From contig NZ_JAMCCX010000009.1 in assembly GCF_024706985.1 (NCBI RefSeq), positions 29,084 to 93,083 on the forward strand: a stretch of 64,000 nucleotides of DNA, given 5' to 3'. Shown piece after piece: positions 31,818 through 40,323 of the stretch; position 1 is the stretch's first letter; every line of letters begins with the position of its first letter. Both the position numbers and the translations under genes were made by a program. Below the pieces are notes generated by a model. That model was not told the DNA's origin and did not search any database. It saw only the letters and a list, made by a program, of their open reading frames with translations. This DNA is from Alicyclobacillus sp. SP_1 (lineage in GTDB: Bacteria; Bacillota; Bacilli; Alicyclobacillales; Alicyclobacillaceae).

Positions 31818-32702
31818 ATGGACTTTCTCGATCGCCTCAATCGCTATCGAGCAGAGGAAGAGGCGCTGCGTTGGGACGGCACGTTTTCGGATTATCTTGA
31901 CATCGTTCGAGAGCGACCAACCGTCGCCAAGAGTGCACATGCGCGAATTTACGACATGATTGTCGCTGCTGGTATCGAACGGGATGCAGAAGACAAACCG
32001 GTTTATCAATTTTTCGAAAGAGAAATGTATGGGCTGAGTCAGACCTTGGAGCGACTCGTAGAAGAGTATTTTCATGCAGCCGCTCGGCGACTCGATGTGC
32101 GCAAGCGCATACTCCTGCTCATGGGCCCAGTCAGCGGTGGCAAATCGACCATCGTGACCATGTTGAAACGGGGCTTGGAGCGGTATACGCGCACGTCGGA
32201 AGGTGCGCTGTACGGAATTAAAGGCTGCCCGATGCACGAAGAACCTCTGCATTTGATTCCAGCTCAACTGCGCGCGGAATTTGAACAAGAATATGGTTTG
32301 TTTGTGGAAGGTAACCTCTGTCCCAGTTGTCGGATGATACTAGAGAATGAATATGGTGGAGATATTCAGAAAGTACCCGTGGAGCGCGTGCTTTTGTCCG
32401 AAGAACATCGCATTGGCATCGGCACCTTCAGCCCCTCAGACCCGAAGTCGCAAGACATTGCGGATTTGACGGGCAGCATCGACTTCTCCACCATTACCGA
32501 ATATGGGTCGGAGAGTGATCCACGTGCGTATCGGTTTGACGGGGAACTGAACAAAGCGAATCGCGGGTTGATGGAATTTCAGGAAATGCTAAAATGCGAT
32601 GAAAAATTCTTGTGGAATTTGCTCAGTTTAACGCAAGAAGGAAATTTCAAGGCCGGACGTTTTGCACTGATCTCTGCCGACGAGATGATTGTGGCGGGAT
32701 GA
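31818..32702 (+). CDS. prkA: PrkA, N-terminal fragment (gene interrupted by integrated element)
   Basis: Encodes residues 1-292 of PrkA plus two residues from the element and a stop (A-G-stop). PrkA is the AAA+ serine kinase/Lon-like protein of spore-formers and is made in the mother cell in B. subtilis. Walker A GPVSGGKS is at 103-110, and the conserved FEQEYGLFVEGNLCPSC, IGTFSPSDPKSQDI and LNKANRGLMEFQEMLKCDEKFLW follow. The frame leaves PrkA homology exactly at DEMIVA, at an 18-bp repeat shared with the other half at 36626. ATG with AGGAGG upstream. As it stands the protein lacks its C-terminal half. Confidence 0.93.
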   Translation: MDFLDRLNRYRAEEEALRWDGTFSDYLDIVRERPTVAKSAHARIYDMIVAAGIERDAEDKPVYQFFEREMYGLSQTLERLVEEYFHAAARRLDVRKRILLLMGPVSGGKSTIVTMLKRGLERYTRTSEGALYGIKGCPMHEEPLHLIPAQLRAEFEQEYGLFVEGNLCPSCRMILENEYGGDIQKVPVERVLLSEEHRIGIGTFSPSDPKSQDIADLTGSIDFSTITEYGSESDPRAYRFDGELNKANRGLMEFQEMLKCDEKFLWNLLSLTQEGNFKAGRFALISADEMIVAG

Positions 32703-32710
32703 GTGCAAAA
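32660..32710. other. attL: left junction of the prkA element
   Basis: From left to right: host half-site motif TTTTGCACTGA (32660-32670), the 18-bp repeat CGACGAGATGATTGTGGC (32678-32695), then the element arm TGAGTGCAAAA (32700-32710). The host motif ends 12 bp from the inferred crossover centre (32682/32683), while the element arm starts 17 bp from it. Confidence 0.85.
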
Positions 32711-32732
32711 TCGCCGGGAGCTCAGGTTTTTC

Positions 32733-34367
32733 TCACGTTGTCGATGCGGGAGTGTGCTGACTGGCCGCGGACCGCAGTTCGACATCCAGATGAAAAGTGC
32801 TCGGGCGATTTCGCCCGCCGCCTTTTTCGGTGACTTCCAGGCGGACACGATGAAGCACGGCGTGCAGGAGTCGGTTTTTTAAGGCAGCGTCGCCAAGGTG
32901 CCGATAAAGGTCGGCCAAACTGTCCATGTCAGGGATGATGCGAGGCGTCACGGCGAAGGAAGTTCGGACATCGTGATTGTGGTCATCCGGCGCGTCATGC
33001 TCAACTTTCGCTAAGTCGGCTTGAATCTTCTCTATTTCAGCGCTCGTGTCGCGGCGGACAAGCAGGTATTCTTCGCGGCTGAGAATGCCGTCCAGCAGAA
33101 GCGTTCGAGCTTCGGCCATGCGCCGCTCCCATCGTGCGAGTTGCCGTTTTTGTCGATCCCGCTCCTCCTCCACGGAAACTTTCGCCACGCGTATCCTGGT
33201 CTCCTCCGCATTTTCGACTGCTTCTCGAAACATACCGAGTGTCGCGAATTTCAGGTGGACGAGCACTTGGATGAGCTGGTCTTCGCAGGTTCGGTACTTG
33301 ACGGACTGGCCGCACTGACGGCAGTAGAGAAACTCCTTCGTGTACGTGGACCGCTCTCCGTTTTTGCGCAGATACGATGGCTGCGAAGACTGGCGTACCA
33401 GCGTTTGGTTGCAAGCAGCACAGGTGACGAGGCCAGCGAGTTCCCAACTGCGCCGCGCTCGCTCTGCCGCTTGGCGAGAACCTTGTCGAGCGTCACGGGT
33501 CGCCAGTCTGTTCTGTACCAGCAACCAGATTTCGTCGTCCACGAGCGGCTGAAAAGCGTGCTCTACGACAATGCGTTCACCGCTCGGTCGCACGGTCACT
33601 CTCCCGTCCGTCTTGTTGCGGCGCGTTTTTCGGAAGACGAGTGTCCCGTGGTAGGCTGGATTTTCTAAAATCCGGCGAATGACGGTGGTTCTCCAGGTGG
33701 GTTTTCCGCGCGGAGAAAGGATGCCCTCTCCTGCCAGTCGACGAGAAATCGCCTGTACAGTCAGCTGTTCGTGCGCAAACCAGACGAATAGGTTTCGAAC
33801 GACTGCCGCTTCCTCCTCATGCGGTACAAGAATCTGGAGATTCCGATGGTATCGGTAGCCGTAGGGAACACTGCCAGCCACCCATTTGCCACGACTCGCG
33901 CCGTCGTACTTTCCCTCCGTTAGTCGCCAAACCGTCATTTCGTATTCCTCGCGATTGAAGAAGAGAGAAAAGCGAATCATGCGGAGGTCGCTGAAATTAG
34001 CGGGATCGTACACCGCGTCCTTGGTAATGATGAAGATGCGGCGGTCTCGCAGAATGTCGTAAACGAGGCCCATGTCGCCATAACTGCCGCGGCCAAGGCG
34101 GGAGAGGTCTTTGCAGACGATGGCCTGATACTTGTCCCCGAGTTGTGGCAAGAGGGCGCGAAAGACGGGACGATGCTGAATGCTGTCCCCCGATGCCACT
34201 TCTTCGGCGATGTCGTAGTCAAAGTTCTGATGCGCCAAAACTTCGCGAATCATCCACTCCCGTTGCTTCTGCAAGGTGTCTTCGCCGCGCCGTTCGGCCT
34301 CTTCATCTTCGCGCGACCGGCGCAAGTAACAGATGGCCGTGCGGACGGGCAAGGCATTATTGGACAT
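32733..34367 (-). CDS. Large serine recombinase (site-specific integrase/excisionase)
   Basis: 544 aa. Resolvase-like catalytic domain with nucleophile S18 in YLRRSRED and Arg90/Arg93 in SRLGRGS; recombinase domain (~155-290, VPYGYRYHRN...WRTTVIRRILENPAYHG); zinc ribbon with C316, C319, C349, C352; then a coiled coil (~370-440) as used for synapsis. Domain order matches SpoIVCA of skin and SprA of SPbeta. The gene ends 23 bp from the attL arm. ATG with GGGGGAAGGA upstream. It should catalyse integration and, with a trigger or directionality factor, excision that rebuilds prkA. Confidence 0.93.
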   Translation of the reverse strand: MSNNALPVRTAICYLRRSREDEEAERRGEDTLQKQREWMIREVLAHQNFDYDIAEEVASGDSIQHRPVFRALLPQLGDKYQAIVCKDLSRLGRGSYGDMGLVYDILRDRRIFIITKDAVYDPANFSDLRMIRFSLFFNREEYEMTVWRLTEGKYDGASRGKWVAGSVPYGYRYHRNLQILVPHEEEAAVVRNLFVWFAHEQLTVQAISRRLAGEGILSPRGKPTWRTTVIRRILENPAYHGTLVFRKTRRNKTDGRVTVRPSGERIVVEHAFQPLVDDEIWLLVQNRLATRDARQGSRQAAERARRSWELAGLVTCAACNQTLVRQSSQPSYLRKNGERSTYTKEFLYCRQCGQSVKYRTCEDQLIQVLVHLKFATLGMFREAVENAEETRIRVAKVSVEEERDRQKRQLARWERRMAEARTLLLDGILSREEYLLVRRDTSAEIEKIQADLAKVEHDAPDDHNHDVRTSFAVTPRIIPDMDSLADLYRHLGDAALKNRLLHAVLHRVRLEVTEKGGGRNRPSTFHLDVELRSAASQHTPASTT

Positions 34368-34400
34368 GAGTCCTTCCCCCTCTCGGCGGTGCTCGTTTTT

Positions 34401-34425
34401 CTATATGTATTCCAACGAGTAGAGT
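34401..34425 (-). promoter_or_regulatory. Possible mother-cell (SigE/SigK-like) promoter of the recombinase gene
   Basis: On the minus strand CATATAGAA (-10 like CATA-N3-TA, last pair AA) with AC 16 bp upstream (34425-34424), the spacing of SigK promoters; CATATAGA also resembles a SigE -10 box. It lies about 35 bp before the start codon. The motifs are short and could be chance. Confidence 0.25.
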
Positions 34426-34496
34426 TCATGAAGTTCGCGGTTCGGGCATGAAGGCGGCGTCAGTCGCGCTCACTGCCACACGTTGCATGAGAGATC

Positions 34497-34530
34497 AAAA
34501 AACACACTCTGCCCGCGGCAGAAGTGTGCT
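34497..34530 (-). terminator. Terminator after the M29 aminopeptidase gene
   Basis: Minus-strand stem CACACTTCTGCC/GGCAGAGTGTG with one bulge, followed by TTTTTT. It separates the aminopeptidase transcript from the recombinase gene inside the element. Confidence 0.8.
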
Positions 34531-34561
34531 CTTTGGTCGTCATTGAGAAGGCTGGAGGCCA

Positions 34562-35791
34562 TCAGATGACCCAGTTGCCCTTTCGGAAAATCGCGATGTC
34601 GCTACCGTCTTCCAAGGTACCATCGATGTCCAGTTCCGCCGAGCCAATCATAAAGTCGATGTGCGTGATGCTGTCATTGGCACCGTTTGCGACCTGCTCT
34701 TCTTCGGTCATGTCGCGACCGCCCACGAGGCAGGTAGGGTAGGCTTTGCCGATAGCCAGATGACAAGACGCATTTTCGTCAAACAGCGTGCTGTAAAACA
34801 GTTGATTGAGATTGGAAATCGGTGATTCATGAGGGACTAAAGCAACTTCTCCTAAATAGTGCGATCCGTCATCCGACTCGATGAGTTCCTTCAGCGTTTC
34901 GAGTCCGCTGGTGGCATGATACTTCGTAATGCGCCCACGCTCGAACGTCAGTTCAATGCCTTCGATGACGGTCCCGTTGTAAGCGAGCGGCATGGTGCTG
35001 CGAACCACGCCCTGGACGCCGTCTTTCTTAGGCAACGTGAATACTTCTTCTGTCGGCATGTTGGCTACAAAGGAAGTGCCTTTCCCGTTGATACTGCGCG
35101 CGGCCAGCCAAGTGTGCAATTCCGGCAACTCAATGGTCAAATCGGTGCCCGGCGCGGTGTAGTGTAGTTTCTTGAAGTGGTGGCTGTTCATGAATTGGGA
35201 GCGGCGCTCTAAGGCGTCGAGATGGTTGTGCCATGCTCCTACCGGATCGTCCTGGTCCATGCGCATCACGTGAAAAATCGCATCCCAGAGCTTTTGCAGT
35301 GCGTCGGTCTCGGACAGTTGCGGGAACATTTTCTTGGCCCAGGAGACGGTCGGGATGGAGCAGACCAGCCAGGATACGCGGTCTTCCATGAAGTTTCGGT
35401 TTGCCTCTTTGAAGGCTGTTCCCCATGCGCGCGCGTGAACGGCGATTCTTTCTGGAGAAATGTCCGCAAGCAGGTCGGGGTCTTCAGCATCCACCACCAG
35501 AAAAGCAGTATTTTTCTCACACAGCTCTTCTTGTTTACGTACGGCCCACGCGGGTACGTCGCTCAAAGCGTCCATCGACTCGCGGTTCATGCGCAGATGT
35601 CGAATGACCGGCGAGTGCCAGTCAATGTCTACCTGGTAGGCGCCAGCATCGTAAGCCTTTTCGGCGAGGATGTGCACAAAGTCTGCAGCCTCCAGTGGAG
35701 CCCCAATATGTACGGGCTGCCCCTTTTGAACATTCAGTCCCACGTTTACTAGAACTTCTGCGTATTGCTCCAACTTTTCTCGACTCGGCAC
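34562..35791 (-). CDS. M29-family aminopeptidase (AmpS/aminopeptidase T type), element cargo
   Basis: A 409-aa cytosolic metallo-aminopeptidase. KLEQYAEVLVNVGLNVQKGQPVHIGAP, HSPVIRHL, WLVCSIPTVSWAKKMFP, the metal-binding region FVANMPTEEVFTLPKKDGVQGVV (Glu), GSHYLGEVALVPHESPI (Glu and His) and GANDSITHIDFMIG (His-x-Asp) are family signatures. GTG 35791 (GAGGTGGG upstream) gives the usual ~410 aa; ATG 35815 has no ribosome site. It is an unusual passenger for a site-specific element and has no obvious role in mobility. Confidence 0.88.
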   Translation of the reverse strand: MPSREKLEQYAEVLVNVGLNVQKGQPVHIGAPLEAADFVHILAEKAYDAGAYQVDIDWHSPVIRHLRMNRESMDALSDVPAWAVRKQEELCEKNTAFLVVDAEDPDLLADISPERIAVHARAWGTAFKEANRNFMEDRVSWLVCSIPTVSWAKKMFPQLSETDALQKLWDAIFHVMRMDQDDPVGAWHNHLDALERRSQFMNSHHFKKLHYTAPGTDLTIELPELHTWLAARSINGKGTSFVANMPTEEVFTLPKKDGVQGVVRSTMPLAYNGTVIEGIELTFERGRITKYHATSGLETLKELIESDDGSHYLGEVALVPHESPISNLNQLFYSTLFDENASCHLAIGKAYPTCLVGGRDMTEEEQVANGANDSITHIDFMIGSAELDIDGTLEDGSDIAIFRKGNWVI

Positions 35792-35874
35792 GGGTCGTCC
35801 CACCTCTCTTTGCATTCGCTTTCATTGTAGCGGATGCGTCTGCAAAAGTGTGTCGAAATTGCTTCGGGACGTTT

Positions 35875-35902
35875 CTGGCAATCTTGGCTCATCCGCTATA
35901 CT
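35875..35902 (+). promoter_or_regulatory. Promoter of the Dabb gene inside the element
   Basis: CTGGCA (35875-35880), a 16-bp spacer, and TATACT (35897-35902), 30 bp before the GTG start. On the opposite strand a TACAAT at 35829-35824 may serve the aminopeptidase gene. Confidence 0.4.
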
Positions 35903-35932
35903 GAGATGAGATGTATGGGGAGGGATTTCAGC

Positions 35933-36238
35933 GTGATTGAACACATGGTTTTGTTCCAGTTTGGGGAGGAGACGACCCAAGCGCAGAAAGACGAGGTCCT
36001 GCGGCAGCTGCGAGAGCTTCGCGAGCACGTGGCGGGCATCGTGGATTTGCAAGCCAACTACAATTTCAGCAACCGTAGCCAAGGCTATGAGATGGGTTTG
36101 ACGGTCCGCTTTGCCTCGAAGACGGACTTGGAGGCGTATGGTCCTCACCCACGGCATCAAGCGGCAGTGGCGTACATGAAAGAGGTTGGACTCGTCCACT
36201 TGCTGGTGGTAGATTTTGAAATCGAGGACTTGCAGTAG
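35933..36238 (+). CDS. Dabb-family (stress-responsive A/B barrel) protein, element cargo
   Basis: A 101-aa dimeric alpha/beta-barrel protein. The start IEHMVLFQFGEE, the middle IVDLQANYNFSNRSQGYEMGLTVRF and the end YGPHPRHQAAVAYMKEVGLVHLLVVDFE match the Dabb domain (the HPxH segment is its signature). GTG 35933 sits 8 nt after GGGGAGGG. Function unknown; family members are linked to stress responses or small-molecule chemistry. Divergent from the aminopeptidase gene. Confidence 0.85.
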   Translation: MIEHMVLFQFGEETTQAQKDEVLRQLRELREHVAGIVDLQANYNFSNRSQGYEMGLTVRFASKTDLEAYGPHPRHQAAVAYMKEVGLVHLLVVDFEIEDLQ

Positions 36239-36357
36239 CAGGATTTTCCTGGTTGCAGTCGTGGCTTTGTGCAATCGCGGCTTACCGCTCCAGACATGCA
36301 GACATGCTCACTCTGAATAAACTCGGCTTGATCCGTGTTTTACAGGGGGGGCTTTTT

Positions 36358-36549
36358 GTGTTGCACATCAAAACCGCCGCTGGAACCGTGACGATTCATT
36401 CCACATGGGCTGGGCCAGACGATGCGTCCATCACTGTGCCTGCGGCTTTGTGTGAAGACCTGGCCTGGCTGTTCTTGGGCAATGAACGTCGCCTCCAGAA
36501 CGACGAGCGAGTACCGCCGGAAACGTCAGACAGTCGTGACTCGGTTTGA
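36358..36549 (+). CDS. Hypothetical 63-aa protein at the right end of the prkA element
   Basis: GTG 36358 follows a GGGGGGG run with 6-nt spacing. The product starts MLHIKTAAGTVTIHSTWAGP, continues as a mixed strand/helix protein (ALCEDLAWLFLGNERRL) and ends in an acidic tail. No family is recognised. It ends 77 bp before the right repeat. Its size and place beside an att site resemble recombination directionality factors such as the 58-aa SprB of SPbeta, but there is no sequence evidence for that role. Confidence 0.45.
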   Translation: MLHIKTAAGTVTIHSTWAGPDDASITVPAALCEDLAWLFLGNERRLQNDERVPPETSDSRDSV

Positions 36550-36563
36550 GAGGTGCCAGAAGC

Positions 36564-37664
36564 GTGCAGCATCGAGTCGAGCGTGGCGAAGGTCTGTGCG
36601 TCTTTTGCACTCAGTTGAGCACAAACGACGAGATGATTGTGGCCCATACCAATGAAGCGGAATACCGTTCTTTTGTGGCGAACCGCAAAAATGAGGCACT
36701 GCAGTCGCGGATGATTGTCATGCCCGTTCCCTACAACCTGCGGGTGGACGAAGAAGTCAAAATATACGAGAAATTGGTCAAAGCGAGCGATTTAAGTCAC
36801 GTCCACATCGCTCCACACGCGCTCAAAACGGCCTCCATCTTTTCAATTTTGACGCGCTTGAAAGAATCTAAAAAGCAAGGCGTTGACTTGCTCAAGAAAC
36901 TCTACTTGTACAACGGACAGACCGTCGAAGGTCTGAAAGACACAGACGTCAAAGAGCTGCGTGCAGAATATCCCGATGAAGGAATGTCCGGTTTAGATCC
37001 GCGCTATATCATCAACCGCATTTCGACTGCGCTGATTCGCCGCGACACGCAGTGCATCAATGCGCTAGACGTCCTTCGGGCCATCAAAGATGGACTCGAC
37101 CAACATGCGTCCATCTCCAAAGACGACAAAGAGCGGCTCCTGAATTACATTTCGATGGCGCGCAAAGAGTACGACGAAATGTCCAAGACGGAAATTCAGA
37201 AAGCATTCGTCTACTCATTCGAAGAGTCTGCCAAGACGCTGCTCGATAACTACTTAGACAACGTCGAAGCCTATTGCAACTGGCAAAAGATTAAAGATCC
37301 TTTGACCGGGGAAGAGGTCGATCCCGATGAGCGCCTGATGCGCTCCATCGAGGAGCAAATTGGCATCTCTGACAACGCGAAGCGGGCGTTTCGCGAGGAG
37401 ATTCTCATTCGCATCTCGACCTACTCTCGGCGCGGCAAGAAGTTTGAATATCACTCGCATGAGCGTCTGCGCGAAGCGATTGAGAAGAAACTGTTCAACG
37501 ACTTGAAAGACGTAGTGAAAATCACGACGTCGACGAAAACACCGGATGAGCAGCAATTGAAGAAAGTCAACGAGGTCATCGCGCGGCTCGTCGATGAACA
37601 CGGCTATTGTTCCGTCTGCGCCAACGAATTGCTTCGGTATACCGGAAGTCTGTTGAATCGCTGA
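36564..37664 (+). CDS. prkA: PrkA, C-terminal fragment (gene interrupted by integrated element)
   Basis: From codon GCC 36642 on, the frame is PrkA residues 293-632 (HTNEAEYRSFVANRKNEALQSRMIVMPVPYNL, DPRYIINRIS, EEQIGISDNAKRAFREEILIRIS, TSTKTPDEQQLKKVNEVIARL). The first ~26 residues come from the element. GTG 36564 with GAGAGG 10 nt upstream could start a separate C-terminal protein in unexcised cells, so a split PrkA might exist; the frame is open further to TTG 36546. After excision this part fuses in frame to the N-terminal fragment. yhbH and spoVR follow. Confidence 0.9.
   Translation: MQHRVERGEGLCVFCTQLSTNDEMIVAHTNEAEYRSFVANRKNEALQSRMIVMPVPYNLRVDEEVKIYEKLVKASDLSHVHIAPHALKTASIFSILTRLKESKKQGVDLLKKLYLYNGQTVEGLKDTDVKELRAEYPDEGMSGLDPRYIINRISTALIRRDTQCINALDVLRAIKDGLDQHASISKDDKERLLNYISMARKEYDEMSKTEIQKAFVYSFEESAKTLLDNYLDNVEAYCNWQKIKDPLTGEEVDPDERLMRSIEEQIGISDNAKRAFREEILIRISTYSRRGKKFEYHSHERLREAIEKKLFNDLKDVVKITTSTKTPDEQQLKKVNEVIARLVDEHGYCSVCANELLRYTGSLLNR
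36603..36643. other. attR: right junction of the prkA element
   Basis: Element arm TTTTGCACTCA (36603-36613), inner CACAA (36620-36624), and the 18-bp repeat CGACGAGATGATTGTGGC (36626-36643), then host prkA. In the excised circle this joins the left end to give an attP with inverted arms centred on 36630/36631. Confidence 0.88.
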
Positions 37665-37714
37665 CTGTTAGGTTTGCATCAAATGGGCGGAAACGATGAA
37701 AGGACGTCTTGCAC

Positions 37715-38875
37715 ATGACAACCAACACAGAATTCAGCTTATCGCGAGAAGATTGGTCGCTGCATCGCAAAGGGCACCAGGACCAGGAGCGTCATCAAGA
37801 AAAGGTGAAGCAAGCCATCAAAGACAATTTGGCCGACATTATCAGCGATGAGGGTATCATCCTGCGCGACGGCCAACAGATTGTCAAAGTGCCCATTCGG
37901 TCTCTGGACGAATACCGAATCCGCTACAATTTCAACAAAAATAAGCAGGCTGGGTCCGGCAACGGAGACTCCCAGGTGGGAGATGTGGTCGCCTCCGGCA
38001 AGCCCGCGGATGCTTCAGGCAAAGGTGGGCAAGGCGCGGGCGACGGACAGGGCGTAGATTATTATGAAGCTGGCGTGTCTCTCGAAGAGATTGAAGAGAT
38101 GCTGTTTGCAGAGCTGGCGCTGCCCAACCTCGCGCGAAAGAGCGCGGAACAGGTGACGGCCGAAGATGTCGAGTTTCGAGACGTCCGTAAAATTGGACTT
38201 TCCGGAAACATTGACAAGCGCCGTACGCTACTCGAAGCCATTCGCAGAAGTTCGCGCAGTGGAGACGAGGGAGTGAGCATTCGCAAGGACGATCTGCGCT
38301 ACAAAACTTGGGAAGAGCGCGACTTGCCAGATTCAAACGCAGTCGTTTTCGCGCTCATGGATACGAGTGGAAGCATGGGACTCTTCGAGAAGTACGCGGC
38401 GCGCACCTTTTTCTTCTGGATGGTGCGGTTTTTGCGAACGAAGTACGAGACCGTGCAAATTCGCTACATCGCTCATCATACGGAGGCGAAAGAGGTTTCG
38501 GAAGAACACTTTTTTACGAAGGGAGAGAGCGGGGGGACGATTTGTTCATCCGCCTATGAGTTGGCGCTTCAGCTGGCGGAGGCAGAATATCCAGCAGACC
38601 ATTACAACTTGTACCCTGTGCATTTTTCTGACGGCGACAATCTTACGTCCGACAATGACAAATGCATCCAATTGGTGCGCGAGTTGTGCAACCGGTCACA
38701 GATGTTTGCCTATGCAGAGGTGAATCAATATCAGCGGAATTCTACGCTCATGTCCGCTTACAGCAAGTTGCGCCACCCAACCTTCCGAACTGCGATGATT
38801 CGGGAAAAAGCAGACGTCTACAAAGCACTGCGCACTTTCTTCTCGCCTGCGCCAGGGGAGGGGAAACTCGCATGA
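37715..38875 (+). CDS. yhbH: Sporulation protein YhbH (DUF444, VWA-like)
   Basis: A 386-aa soluble protein. The N-terminal half includes LSREDWSLHRKGHQDQERHQEKV, a Gly-rich linker and DLRYKTWEERDLPDSNAVVFALMDTSGSMG; DTSGS is a von Willebrand-type metal site. This is the partner conserved next to prkA and spoVR (yeaG-yeaH-ycgB in enterobacteria) and SigE-controlled in B. subtilis. ATG 37715 with AAAGGA upstream; it overlaps spoVR by 4 bp. The prkA element separates it from sequence upstream of prkA, where the operon promoter should be. Confidence 0.93.
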   Translation: MTTNTEFSLSREDWSLHRKGHQDQERHQEKVKQAIKDNLADIISDEGIILRDGQQIVKVPIRSLDEYRIRYNFNKNKQAGSGNGDSQVGDVVASGKPADASGKGGQGAGDGQGVDYYEAGVSLEEIEEMLFAELALPNLARKSAEQVTAEDVEFRDVRKIGLSGNIDKRRTLLEAIRRSSRSGDEGVSIRKDDLRYKTWEERDLPDSNAVVFALMDTSGSMGLFEKYAARTFFFWMVRFLRTKYETVQIRYIAHHTEAKEVSEEHFFTKGESGGTICSSAYELALQLAEAEYPADHYNLYPVHFSDGDNLTSDNDKCIQLVRELCNRSQMFAYAEVNQYQRNSTLMSAYSKLRHPTFRTAMIREKADVYKALRTFFSPAPGEGKLA

Positions 38876-40323
38876 ATGTGGCAGAAATGGCGGAGTTGGA
38901 TGACAGCATTGCGACGATGATGGACATTGCCAGGCAGAACGGTCTGGACTTTTATCCAATGCGCTTCGAAGTCTGTCCGGCCGACATTCTCTACACATTT
39001 GGGGCATACGGCATGCCCACGCGGTTCCACCACTGGAGCTTCGGTAAAGTCTTTCATCGCATGCGATTGGAATACGATTTCGGACTCAGTCGCATCTACG
39101 AGTTGGTCATCAACTCCGACCCATGCTATGCATTTTTGCTCGACGGCAACACGTTGCTCCAAAACAAGACCGTGTGCGCACACGTACTCGCCCACTGTGA
39201 CTTCTTCAAGAACAACGCCACCTTTCGCAACACGTCTCGCGATATGGTCGAGCGCATGGCGAGTTCGGCGGACCGCATACGGCAATACGAACTGCAGTAT
39301 GGCCGAGACGCGGTCGAAGCGTTCTTAGATGCTGGTTTGGCGTGCCAAGAGCATATCGATCCGTCGACCTACGGCCGCATGCAGCGGCGTCGATGGTGGG
39401 AAGGAAGGTATCAGGAGCAGCGCGGTATGGCCCATGACGACTCGCTGCGCCAGCGTCCAAAGCGCAGCCCATACGATGACCTCTGGGAGTTGGATGATAG
39501 CGGCAACGCATCTCGAAACGAAGCAACGGATGTTGGCAGGCCGCGCTTTGCGTTGCCGCAGAAGGATATCTTGCTGTTCCTAATTGAACACAGTCCGGCC
39601 CTCAAATCTTGGGAACGAGACATTCTCTCTATTCTGCGCGAAGAAATGCTCTATTTTTGGCCGCAGTTGGAGACGAAAATCATGAACGAAGGCTGGGCGA
39701 CGTATTGGCACTTACGCATCATGCGCGAGCTCGACCTTACCCCAGAGGACGCTATCGAATTTGCCAAAATGCATTCGGGAGTGGTGCTGCCGTCGCGCAC
39801 GAGCATCAACCCGTATCATTTGGGTCTGGCCATCTGGGAGAGCATTGAAAAGCGATGGGATGCACCTGCGAAGGAGGGGGAGCGCCGAATTCCTCTCGAA
39901 GGTGGTGGCGGTCGAGCAAAAATGTTTGAGGTCCGTGAGATGGAGAACGACATCTCTTTTTTGAGGAACTACTTGACCAAGGAGCTCGTGGAGGAACTGG
40001 ACTTGTATCTCTATCAGAAAGTGGGCGCGGATTGGAAAGTTGTTGAGACGGACTGGGAGAAAGTGCGAGACAGTATCTGTGCCTCGCGCGTCAATGGGGG
40101 CATCCCCGTGTTGTATGTAGAAGATGCGGACCTCAATCAAAATGGGGAGTTACTGTTGCAACATGCCTATGAGGGAGTGGAGTTAGACCTCCGTCATTTG
40201 GAGAAGACGTTACCTCATGTACATCGTCTATGGGGGAGAACCTGTCATTTGAAAACGGTCGTCGAGGGCCGAGAAGTGCTCTTTTCTTGCGATGGGAAGC
40301 GAGTGCAGCGCAAATTTATGTAA
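38872..40323 (+). CDS. spoVR: Stage V sporulation protein R
   Basis: A 483-aa protein involved in spore cortex formation. YPMRFEVCPADILYTFGAYGMPTRFHHWSFGK, DPCYAFLLDGN, HVLAHCDFFKNN, KIMNEGWATYWHLRIM and INPYHLGLAIWESIEKRWD are SpoVR/YcgB signatures, including conserved His and Glu residues. ATG overlaps the yhbH stop (ATGA) after GGGGAGGGG. Last gene of the prkA-yhbH-spoVR group. Confidence 0.95.
   Translation: MNVAEMAELDDSIATMMDIARQNGLDFYPMRFEVCPADILYTFGAYGMPTRFHHWSFGKVFHRMRLEYDFGLSRIYELVINSDPCYAFLLDGNTLLQNKTVCAHVLAHCDFFKNNATFRNTSRDMVERMASSADRIRQYELQYGRDAVEAFLDAGLACQEHIDPSTYGRMQRRRWWEGRYQEQRGMAHDDSLRQRPKRSPYDDLWELDDSGNASRNEATDVGRPRFALPQKDILLFLIEHSPALKSWERDILSILREEMLYFWPQLETKIMNEGWATYWHLRIMRELDLTPEDAIEFAKMHSGVVLPSRTSINPYHLGLAIWESIEKRWDAPAKEGERRIPLEGGGGRAKMFEVREMENDISFLRNYLTKELVEELDLYLYQKVGADWKVVETDWEKVRDSICASRVNGGIPVLYVEDADLNQNGELLLQHAYEGVELDLRHLEKTLPHVHRLWGRTCHLKTVVEGREVLFSCDGKRVQRKFM

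Follow-up and report, generated by a model that had tools for sequence, protein, structure and literature searches.

Organization of the Split prkA Locus

The window analyzed here, a stretch of 64 kb (64,000 nucleotides) from Alicyclobacillus sp. SP_1, contains a prkA-yhbH-spoVR operon in which prkA (632 codons) is interrupted by a 3,948-bp element flanked by two copies of an 18-bp repeat. The host gene of this element is a sporulation gene, as its operon includes a TIGR02877 (spore_yhbH) member; prkA is a mother-cell gene in B. subtilis. The features of the locus are as follows:

31818..32702, plus strand, 5' piece of prkA (joined residues 1-292, then two element-encoded residues and a stop; 294 aa; from ORF, Pfam and the join)
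32678..32695, plus strand, left copy of the 18-bp repeat, putative attL core, with GA at 32682-32683 (repeat search)
32700..32710, plus strand, right arm of the putative attP inverted repeat, TGAGTGCAAAA (end pairing in the circle)
32733..34367, minus strand, SprA-type large serine recombinase, 544 aa, beside the left end (Resolvase and Recombinase domains, SPbeta YokA profile match, phrog_95 integrase)
34562..35815, minus strand, cargo, M29 aminopeptidase, 417 aa (domain match, E 2.2e-162)
35933..36238, plus strand, cargo, Dabb (stress-responsive A/B barrel) protein, 101 aa, GTG start (family match)
36358..36549, plus strand, 63-aa ORF at the recombinase-distal end, tentative directionality-factor candidate (position, shared motif)
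36603..36613, plus strand, left arm of the putative attP inverted repeat, TTTTGCACTCA (end pairing in the circle)
36626..36643, plus strand, right copy of the 18-bp repeat, putative attR core, with GA at 36630-36631 (repeat search)
36630..37664, plus strand, 3' piece of prkA, from the crossover GA to the stop (ORF, Pfam, in-frame join)
37709..38875, plus strand, yhbH, unsplit in the window, with two split sites in relatives (TIGR02877 above cut-off)
38872..40323, plus strand, spoVR, unsplit in the window, with two split sites in relatives (ORF, SpoVR search of relatives)

The original prediction had assigned PrkA residues 1-292 and 293-632 to two pieces that share the repeat and join there into an intact 632-codon frame, and each of these points was reproduced: the 5' ORF starts at 31818, the 3' piece ends at 37664, an exact search finds the repeat exactly twice in the window, and fusion at the repeat gives 1,899 nt with zero internal stops. 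When up to three mismatches are allowed, the repeat has three matches in the window vs. 0.13 expected, the third (with three mismatches) lying inside the M29 gene. The Pfam domain AAA_PrkA crosses the join: the 5' piece covers profile positions 2-279, and the 3' piece continues with 280-356 and then the PrkA C-terminal domain. A second, intact prkA, which would have weakened the prediction, was not found in the organism's own genome (99.98% completeness, 105 contigs), whose PrkA matches are the two pieces only.

Anatomy of the prkA Element

The element has a GC content of 0.557, vs. 0.533 for the window. Its recombinase is placed in the SprA-type class by full-length similarity together with resolvase and recombinase domains, both of which are present. 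Searched against the PDB, a profile of six such recombinases matched SPbeta YokA/SprA with E 5.9e-120 along profile positions 5-521, and the best phage records for the recombinase are of the SPbeta type, with 32-37% identity. The M29 aminopeptidase has a second copy in the same genome that is 44% identical. No phage genes (structural or lysis) were seen among the recombinase, M29, Dabb and small-ORF products of the window element.

The element ends carry an 11-bp perfect inverted repeat that is symmetric about the GA, as expected of an attP site; its arms lie outside the direct repeat and are brought together only in the excised circle, which was formed on paper. The 18-bp identity of the direct repeat is local to the window and unusually long; elsewhere it is reduced to a short core that includes the GA.

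A small ORF sharing the motif T-x-x-G-x-[VI], which was chosen after looking at the sequences, is present at the far end of all six prkA elements of the family; it was found automatically in five of the six, the window's being recognized by eye, or with an internal GTG start only. It was not found in two prkA elements from other families (G139 and G173), had no PHROGs match better than E 0.14 and no family match, and gave no credible match in the PDB. From its position and motif, it could be a directionality factor. Close to SprA-type recombinases of another family (L147 and L148, in genomes G122 and G133) there are small genes whose starts are similar (...ILVVGGDRLGNI...). A sporulation-promoter scan gave promoter-like sites in some of the six elements and no signal at the prkA promoter used as a control.

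Recurrence of the Split at the Same prkA Codon

Six of the 41 genomes of the family (G000, G005, G017, G018, G029, and G040) have prkA interrupted at this codon, with intact genes in others. The five other family elements each have a recombinase inside the split that is 46-55% identical to the window's, and the six elements range from 3.1 to 6.2 kb. A longest-common-substring search missed the diverged repeats, and junctions were instead read against intact genes. All six cases have GA at the crossover, with identity around it down to a few bases outside the window's genome, and each rejoins at the GA into 632 codons without stop or frameshift. The insertion site falls in a well-conserved stretch of PrkA, and a conserved ATG (Met-290) stands at the start of the 3' piece.

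Across the class, a recombinase of this type was found in 16 of 299 genomes (E <= 1e-90), and nine of the 16 are in or beside a split prkA. Four of these nine belong to this family (G000, G005, G017, and G040), the two further family cases being outside the 299-genome sample. Another four, in three other families, have both halves of a prkA that is split at the same codon, with elements of 2.2 kb (G139), about 18 kb (G173), about 34 kb (G138), and about 31 kb (G271). The last, Ferroacidibacillus organovorans SLC66 (G257), has the 5' half of prkA and two recombinases, the 3' half being absent from its contig. These two SprA-type recombinases (L093, 3930-12929) follow the 5' half and are 45% and 36% identical to the window's, perhaps as two stacked elements. 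The remaining seven of the 16 comprise two beside an spsM-like gene, which we take to be spsM, the target of SPbeta, and five not near a prkA-yhbH-spoVR operon.

A tree places the prkA recombinases of this order in one group and intermingles those of other families with the spsM type; the family's prkA-289 recombinases form a clade only with G257 included, and class-wide the prkA recombinases are not one clade. The recombinase is on the plus strand at prkA in G139 and G257 and on the minus strand in the six family cases. No phage using prkA as a site was found among the eight viral loci recovered.

The prkA-yhbH-spoVR Operon as a Target

A search for YhbH and SpoVR with mapping of their loci in the 41 family genomes gave, together with prkA, 32 splits at five sites in 21 of the genomes:

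prkA-289, 6 genomes
yhbH-223, 13 genomes
yhbH-341, 5 genomes
spoVR-60, 7 genomes
spoVR-285, 1 genome

One genome (G029) has four splits in one operon. Judged from these splits, the whole prkA-yhbH-spoVR operon is a target of elements. A few cases in the count are weak: the yhbH-341 3' piece of G040 has 37% identity and one stop, the spoVR 5' piece of G021 has stops within the matched stretch, and the halves are on different contigs in yhbH-341 of G017 and G033 and in spoVR-60 of G014. A short yhbH match in G038 was left out. Apparent SpoVR "breaks" at residues 210-228 and a YhbH break in G039 proved to be alignment gaps within one open frame, and were not counted. The pieces of spoVR in G003 are about 135 kb apart (C1:533316-668437) and those of yhbH in G040 about 131 kb apart (C1:852875-984327), far beyond the distances at most sites. 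The yhbH-223 insertion (L106-L115 and others) falls inside the DTSGS motif of YhbH, presumably a metal-binding VWA motif.

Two controls were considered. spoIVA, which is also a mother-cell gene, was found in 37 genomes, unbroken in 36 of them and on two contigs in the other, and had no match in 4 of the 41. Eleven full-length prkA paralogs (66-73% identity, in 10 genomes) are unsplit, which is a lenient control, as any copy scored as full-length is necessarily unsplit; partial paralogs (G027, G031, and G034) break elsewhere than at residue 289.

Where a recombinase was found, it occupies one side of the element and has one orientation per site within the family. Among 29 recombinases (pairs aligned over >200 residues), two from one site are 41-89% identical and two from different sites 19-38%; the number falls short of 32 as none of this kind was found beside spoVR-60 in G019 and G021, and G014 was left out. 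Within the family, one recombinase clade per site holds for three multi-member sites, namely yhbH-223, yhbH-341, and spoVR-60, whose recombinases are monophyletic in each case.

Symmetry of the Predicted attP Sites

Both junctions could be fixed in 28 of the 32 elements, the omitted ones being yhbH-223 of G029, yhbH-341 of G040, and spoVR-60 of G014 and G021. When the ends of each element were brought together, the resulting attP dyad had a mean of 16.6 of 30 pairs vs. 12.5 in 562 mismatched pairings of ends from different sites (Mann-Whitney p 4.6e-14, only a guide since the same arms are reused in the controls). The centre of the dyad is at the site's commonest offset in 24 of 27 elements, with the single spoVR-285 element set aside; the offset of -0.5 at spoVR-60 reflects cores out of register by one base. 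Individually, 16 of the 28 elements exceed the 95% level of the control by pairs and 10 by run length. The window's attP has 18 of 30 pairs, including a run of 11, and no control run exceeds 10. Together with their attP/attB pairs, the site-specific recombinase clades are candidates for new integrases as well.

These results bear on whether the two pieces need to be rejoined. Both ORFs are open, and the conserved Met-290 would offer the 3' piece a start, as would be expected if the pieces were made as separate cooperating proteins; the break, however, lies inside the AAA_PrkA domain, and in yhbH inside the DTSGS motif, and separate proteins would leave both the attP dyads and the conserved recombinase unexplained. 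We regard this as extremely improbable.

Selection on the Split Genes

The six split prkA genes have a lineage-specific ratio of nonsynonymous to synonymous changes per site of 0.037, from 55 and 428 changes, and thirty intact genes have a ratio of 0.020, from 123 and 1,776 changes, in a test of 36 of the 41 genomes (G019, G020, G021, G034, and G037 were left out). The window's own halves have ratios of 0.026 (5') and 0.034 (3'). Because the window's insertion could be of any age, splits shared between genomes are better evidence than this ratio. One cargo gene, 89% identical between G017 and G018, has the same position in both, and their prkA has dN of 0.047 and 0.056 at a dS of about 1.3. 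In three genera with shared yhbH splits, dN/dS is 0.012-0.056 in those yhbH halves that allowed an estimate of dS, and 0.10-0.34 in the recombinases at these splits. The PrkA of G005 is 99.4% identical to that of its intact relative G015, and its insertion may be recent. Such ratios appear unlike those of simply broken genes. Recent, separate insertions could account for them, but are unlikely given how far the recombinases have diverged.

A mobile element that had inactivated a dispensable prkA, with decay now beginning, would fit the slightly higher ratio of split than intact prkA (0.037 vs. 0.020), and some split genomes do have a second, intact prkA-type operon (e.g., G018, G029, and G040). 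In the window's genome, however, no second prkA was found; each half has an open frame under strong constraint, as do the halves of splits common to a genus; the recombinases have been maintained, and the attP dyads are intact. We therefore consider such a static disruption unlikely.

Cargo of the prkA Elements

The prkA elements of the family carry a varied set of genes. In G017 and G018, the element encodes a thioredoxin reductase (TIGR01292 above cut-off; L054:3104-4060 and L055:14983-15942, respectively), which is the only TrxB match at E <= 1e-70 in either genome. A TrxB match is present in 38 of the other 39 family genomes, many of them 70-85% identical, and lies outside prkA; TrxB is essential in B. 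subtilis. The element of G005 contains a three-gene germination-receptor operon (GerA-GerC-permease, L053:4835-8806), that of G029 a PBP2-type transpeptidase and an NlpC/P60 protein, and that of G040 two TauE proteins. Germination receptors are made in the forespore. No phage genes were seen among the scanned (larger) ORFs of the family prkA elements. This cargo suggests that some elements have ceased to be parasites. Where a gene presumably needed for growth is found solely inside the element, it would hold the split in place, and such lock-in could explain why the split persists.

The elements might also be ordinary temperate elements for which prkA is a mere phage-type attachment site, with induced excision in growing cells and no developmental role. 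Their recombinase is SPbeta-like, the prkA elements of other families, at about 18-34 kb, are prophage-sized, and SPbeta itself plays both the temperate and the developmental role, according to passages in PMC4191935. No phage gene, however, was seen among the ORFs scanned in the 4-kb window element, and the target is a sporulation operon, with spoIVA unhit. Moreover, because the only TrxB found in G017 and G018 is inside the element, its loss in growing cells should be costly. We consider this explanation very unlikely.

Proposed Excision during Sporulation

The reading that we favor, with considerable confidence, is that the window contains a gene-intervening element that a SprA-type recombinase would excise during sporulation. 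The original prediction had proposed such an element with prkA as the host gene, and comparative grounds now support it: the split recurs at the same codon, the recombinases are of the SprA type, an attP dyad lies at the join, the frame is restored by rejoining, the halves are under purifying selection, and no second prkA was found. The prediction had missed the yhbH and spoVR splits in relatives and the host-type cargo.

From these sequences, we infer the following course. The recombinase would join attL and attR at the GA in the Glu-289 codon of prkA, freeing the element as a circle and making prkA whole in the mother cell, to which excision would be confined. The small element-encoded protein would set the direction of recombination. 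The forespore would keep the split copy and pass the element on, and the element with its cargo (here the aminopeptidase and the Dabb protein) would stay with the spore line and be dropped by the terminal cell.

In the window's own genome, a sigK-like gene is also in two pieces, C50:169320-169661 (profile positions 2-116) and C17:112874-113221 (profile positions 111-226), with a serine recombinase (C17:111296-112240) directly before the 3' piece; another sigK-like gene (C39:9320-9967) is whole. In B. subtilis, a prkA mutant is described in part of PMC4415436 as having lower sigK reporter activity. The prkA and sigK rearrangements might act in series.

More tentatively, and as a possibility that we put somewhat short of probable, the elements may constitute germline-restricted DNA in Alicyclobacillaceae-type bacteria. 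Growing cells would carry the operon in fragments, up to four independent recombinases would put it together in the mother cell alone, and the excised elements, as homes to host genes (the sole TrxB, a germination-receptor operon, a PBP2), would be kept by the spore line and discarded by the terminal cell. This would amount to programmed DNA elimination and a germline/soma division of gene content, and, if true, would be a bacterial parallel to the germline-restricted DNA of ciliates and some animals. With four elements in one genome, sporulation would depend on several precise excisions at once.

Comparison with Known Sporulation Intervening Elements

The window element has three traits of the intervening elements skin, SPbeta, vfbin, vrin, gin, and yin: it splits a sporulation gene, the frame is restored on paper at a short direct repeat, and it encodes its own site-specific recombinase. 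A 2013 primary study reportedly described two such elements, vfbin in spoVFB and vrin in spoVR of Geobacillus thermoglucosidasius. The known targets, as named in passages of four papers, are sigK, spsM, spoVFB, spoVR, gerE, and yabG (PMC4191935, PMC6957869, PMC10747680, PMC5595907). Neither prkA nor yhbH occurs in the main texts of these papers or in that of PMC13141910, parts of which describe the sigK prophage of Alicyclobacillus acidoterrestris. We found no report of either gene as a target in the open-access literature searched, in agreement with the original prediction as regards prkA; the 2013 vfbin/vrin paper might mention them. YhbH is listed in part of PMC9341999 among the prophage proteins of Paenibacillus larvae, where it is not called a split gene.

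Of the known systems, SPbeta of Bacillus subtilis (SprA/SprB, in spsM) has the same kind of recombinase over its full length and likewise splits a sporulation gene; its excision unit has recombinase and helper at opposite ends (passages in PMC6957869), to which the recombinase and the candidate small ORF of the window element might correspond. However, SPbeta is a 134-kb phage genome in spsM, whereas the window element is 3.9 kb, with no phage genes seen, and is in prkA. The skin element in sigK (SpoIVCA) is also a serine-recombinase element splitting a sporulation gene that is rebuilt in the mother cell (in part of PMC6957869), but is a defective prophage of 48 kb (in part of PMC13141910), and differs in both target and size. 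The vrin element interrupts spoVR, another gene of this operon (in part of PMC4191935). The gin element in gerE of Bacillus cereus ATCC10987 is a non-prophage intervening element with serine recombinases that is excised in sporulation; as described in sections of PMC5595907, it has 28.6 kb, three recombinases, a 9-bp core, and the helper GirX, whereas the window element has about 4 kb and one recombinase.

The published sporulation intervening elements that we found were described one gene at a time, whereas here one operon is split at five positions across a family. Our best reading is that prkA is a new host gene for the known kind of sporulation intervening element, of which the elements found here are a compounded variant.
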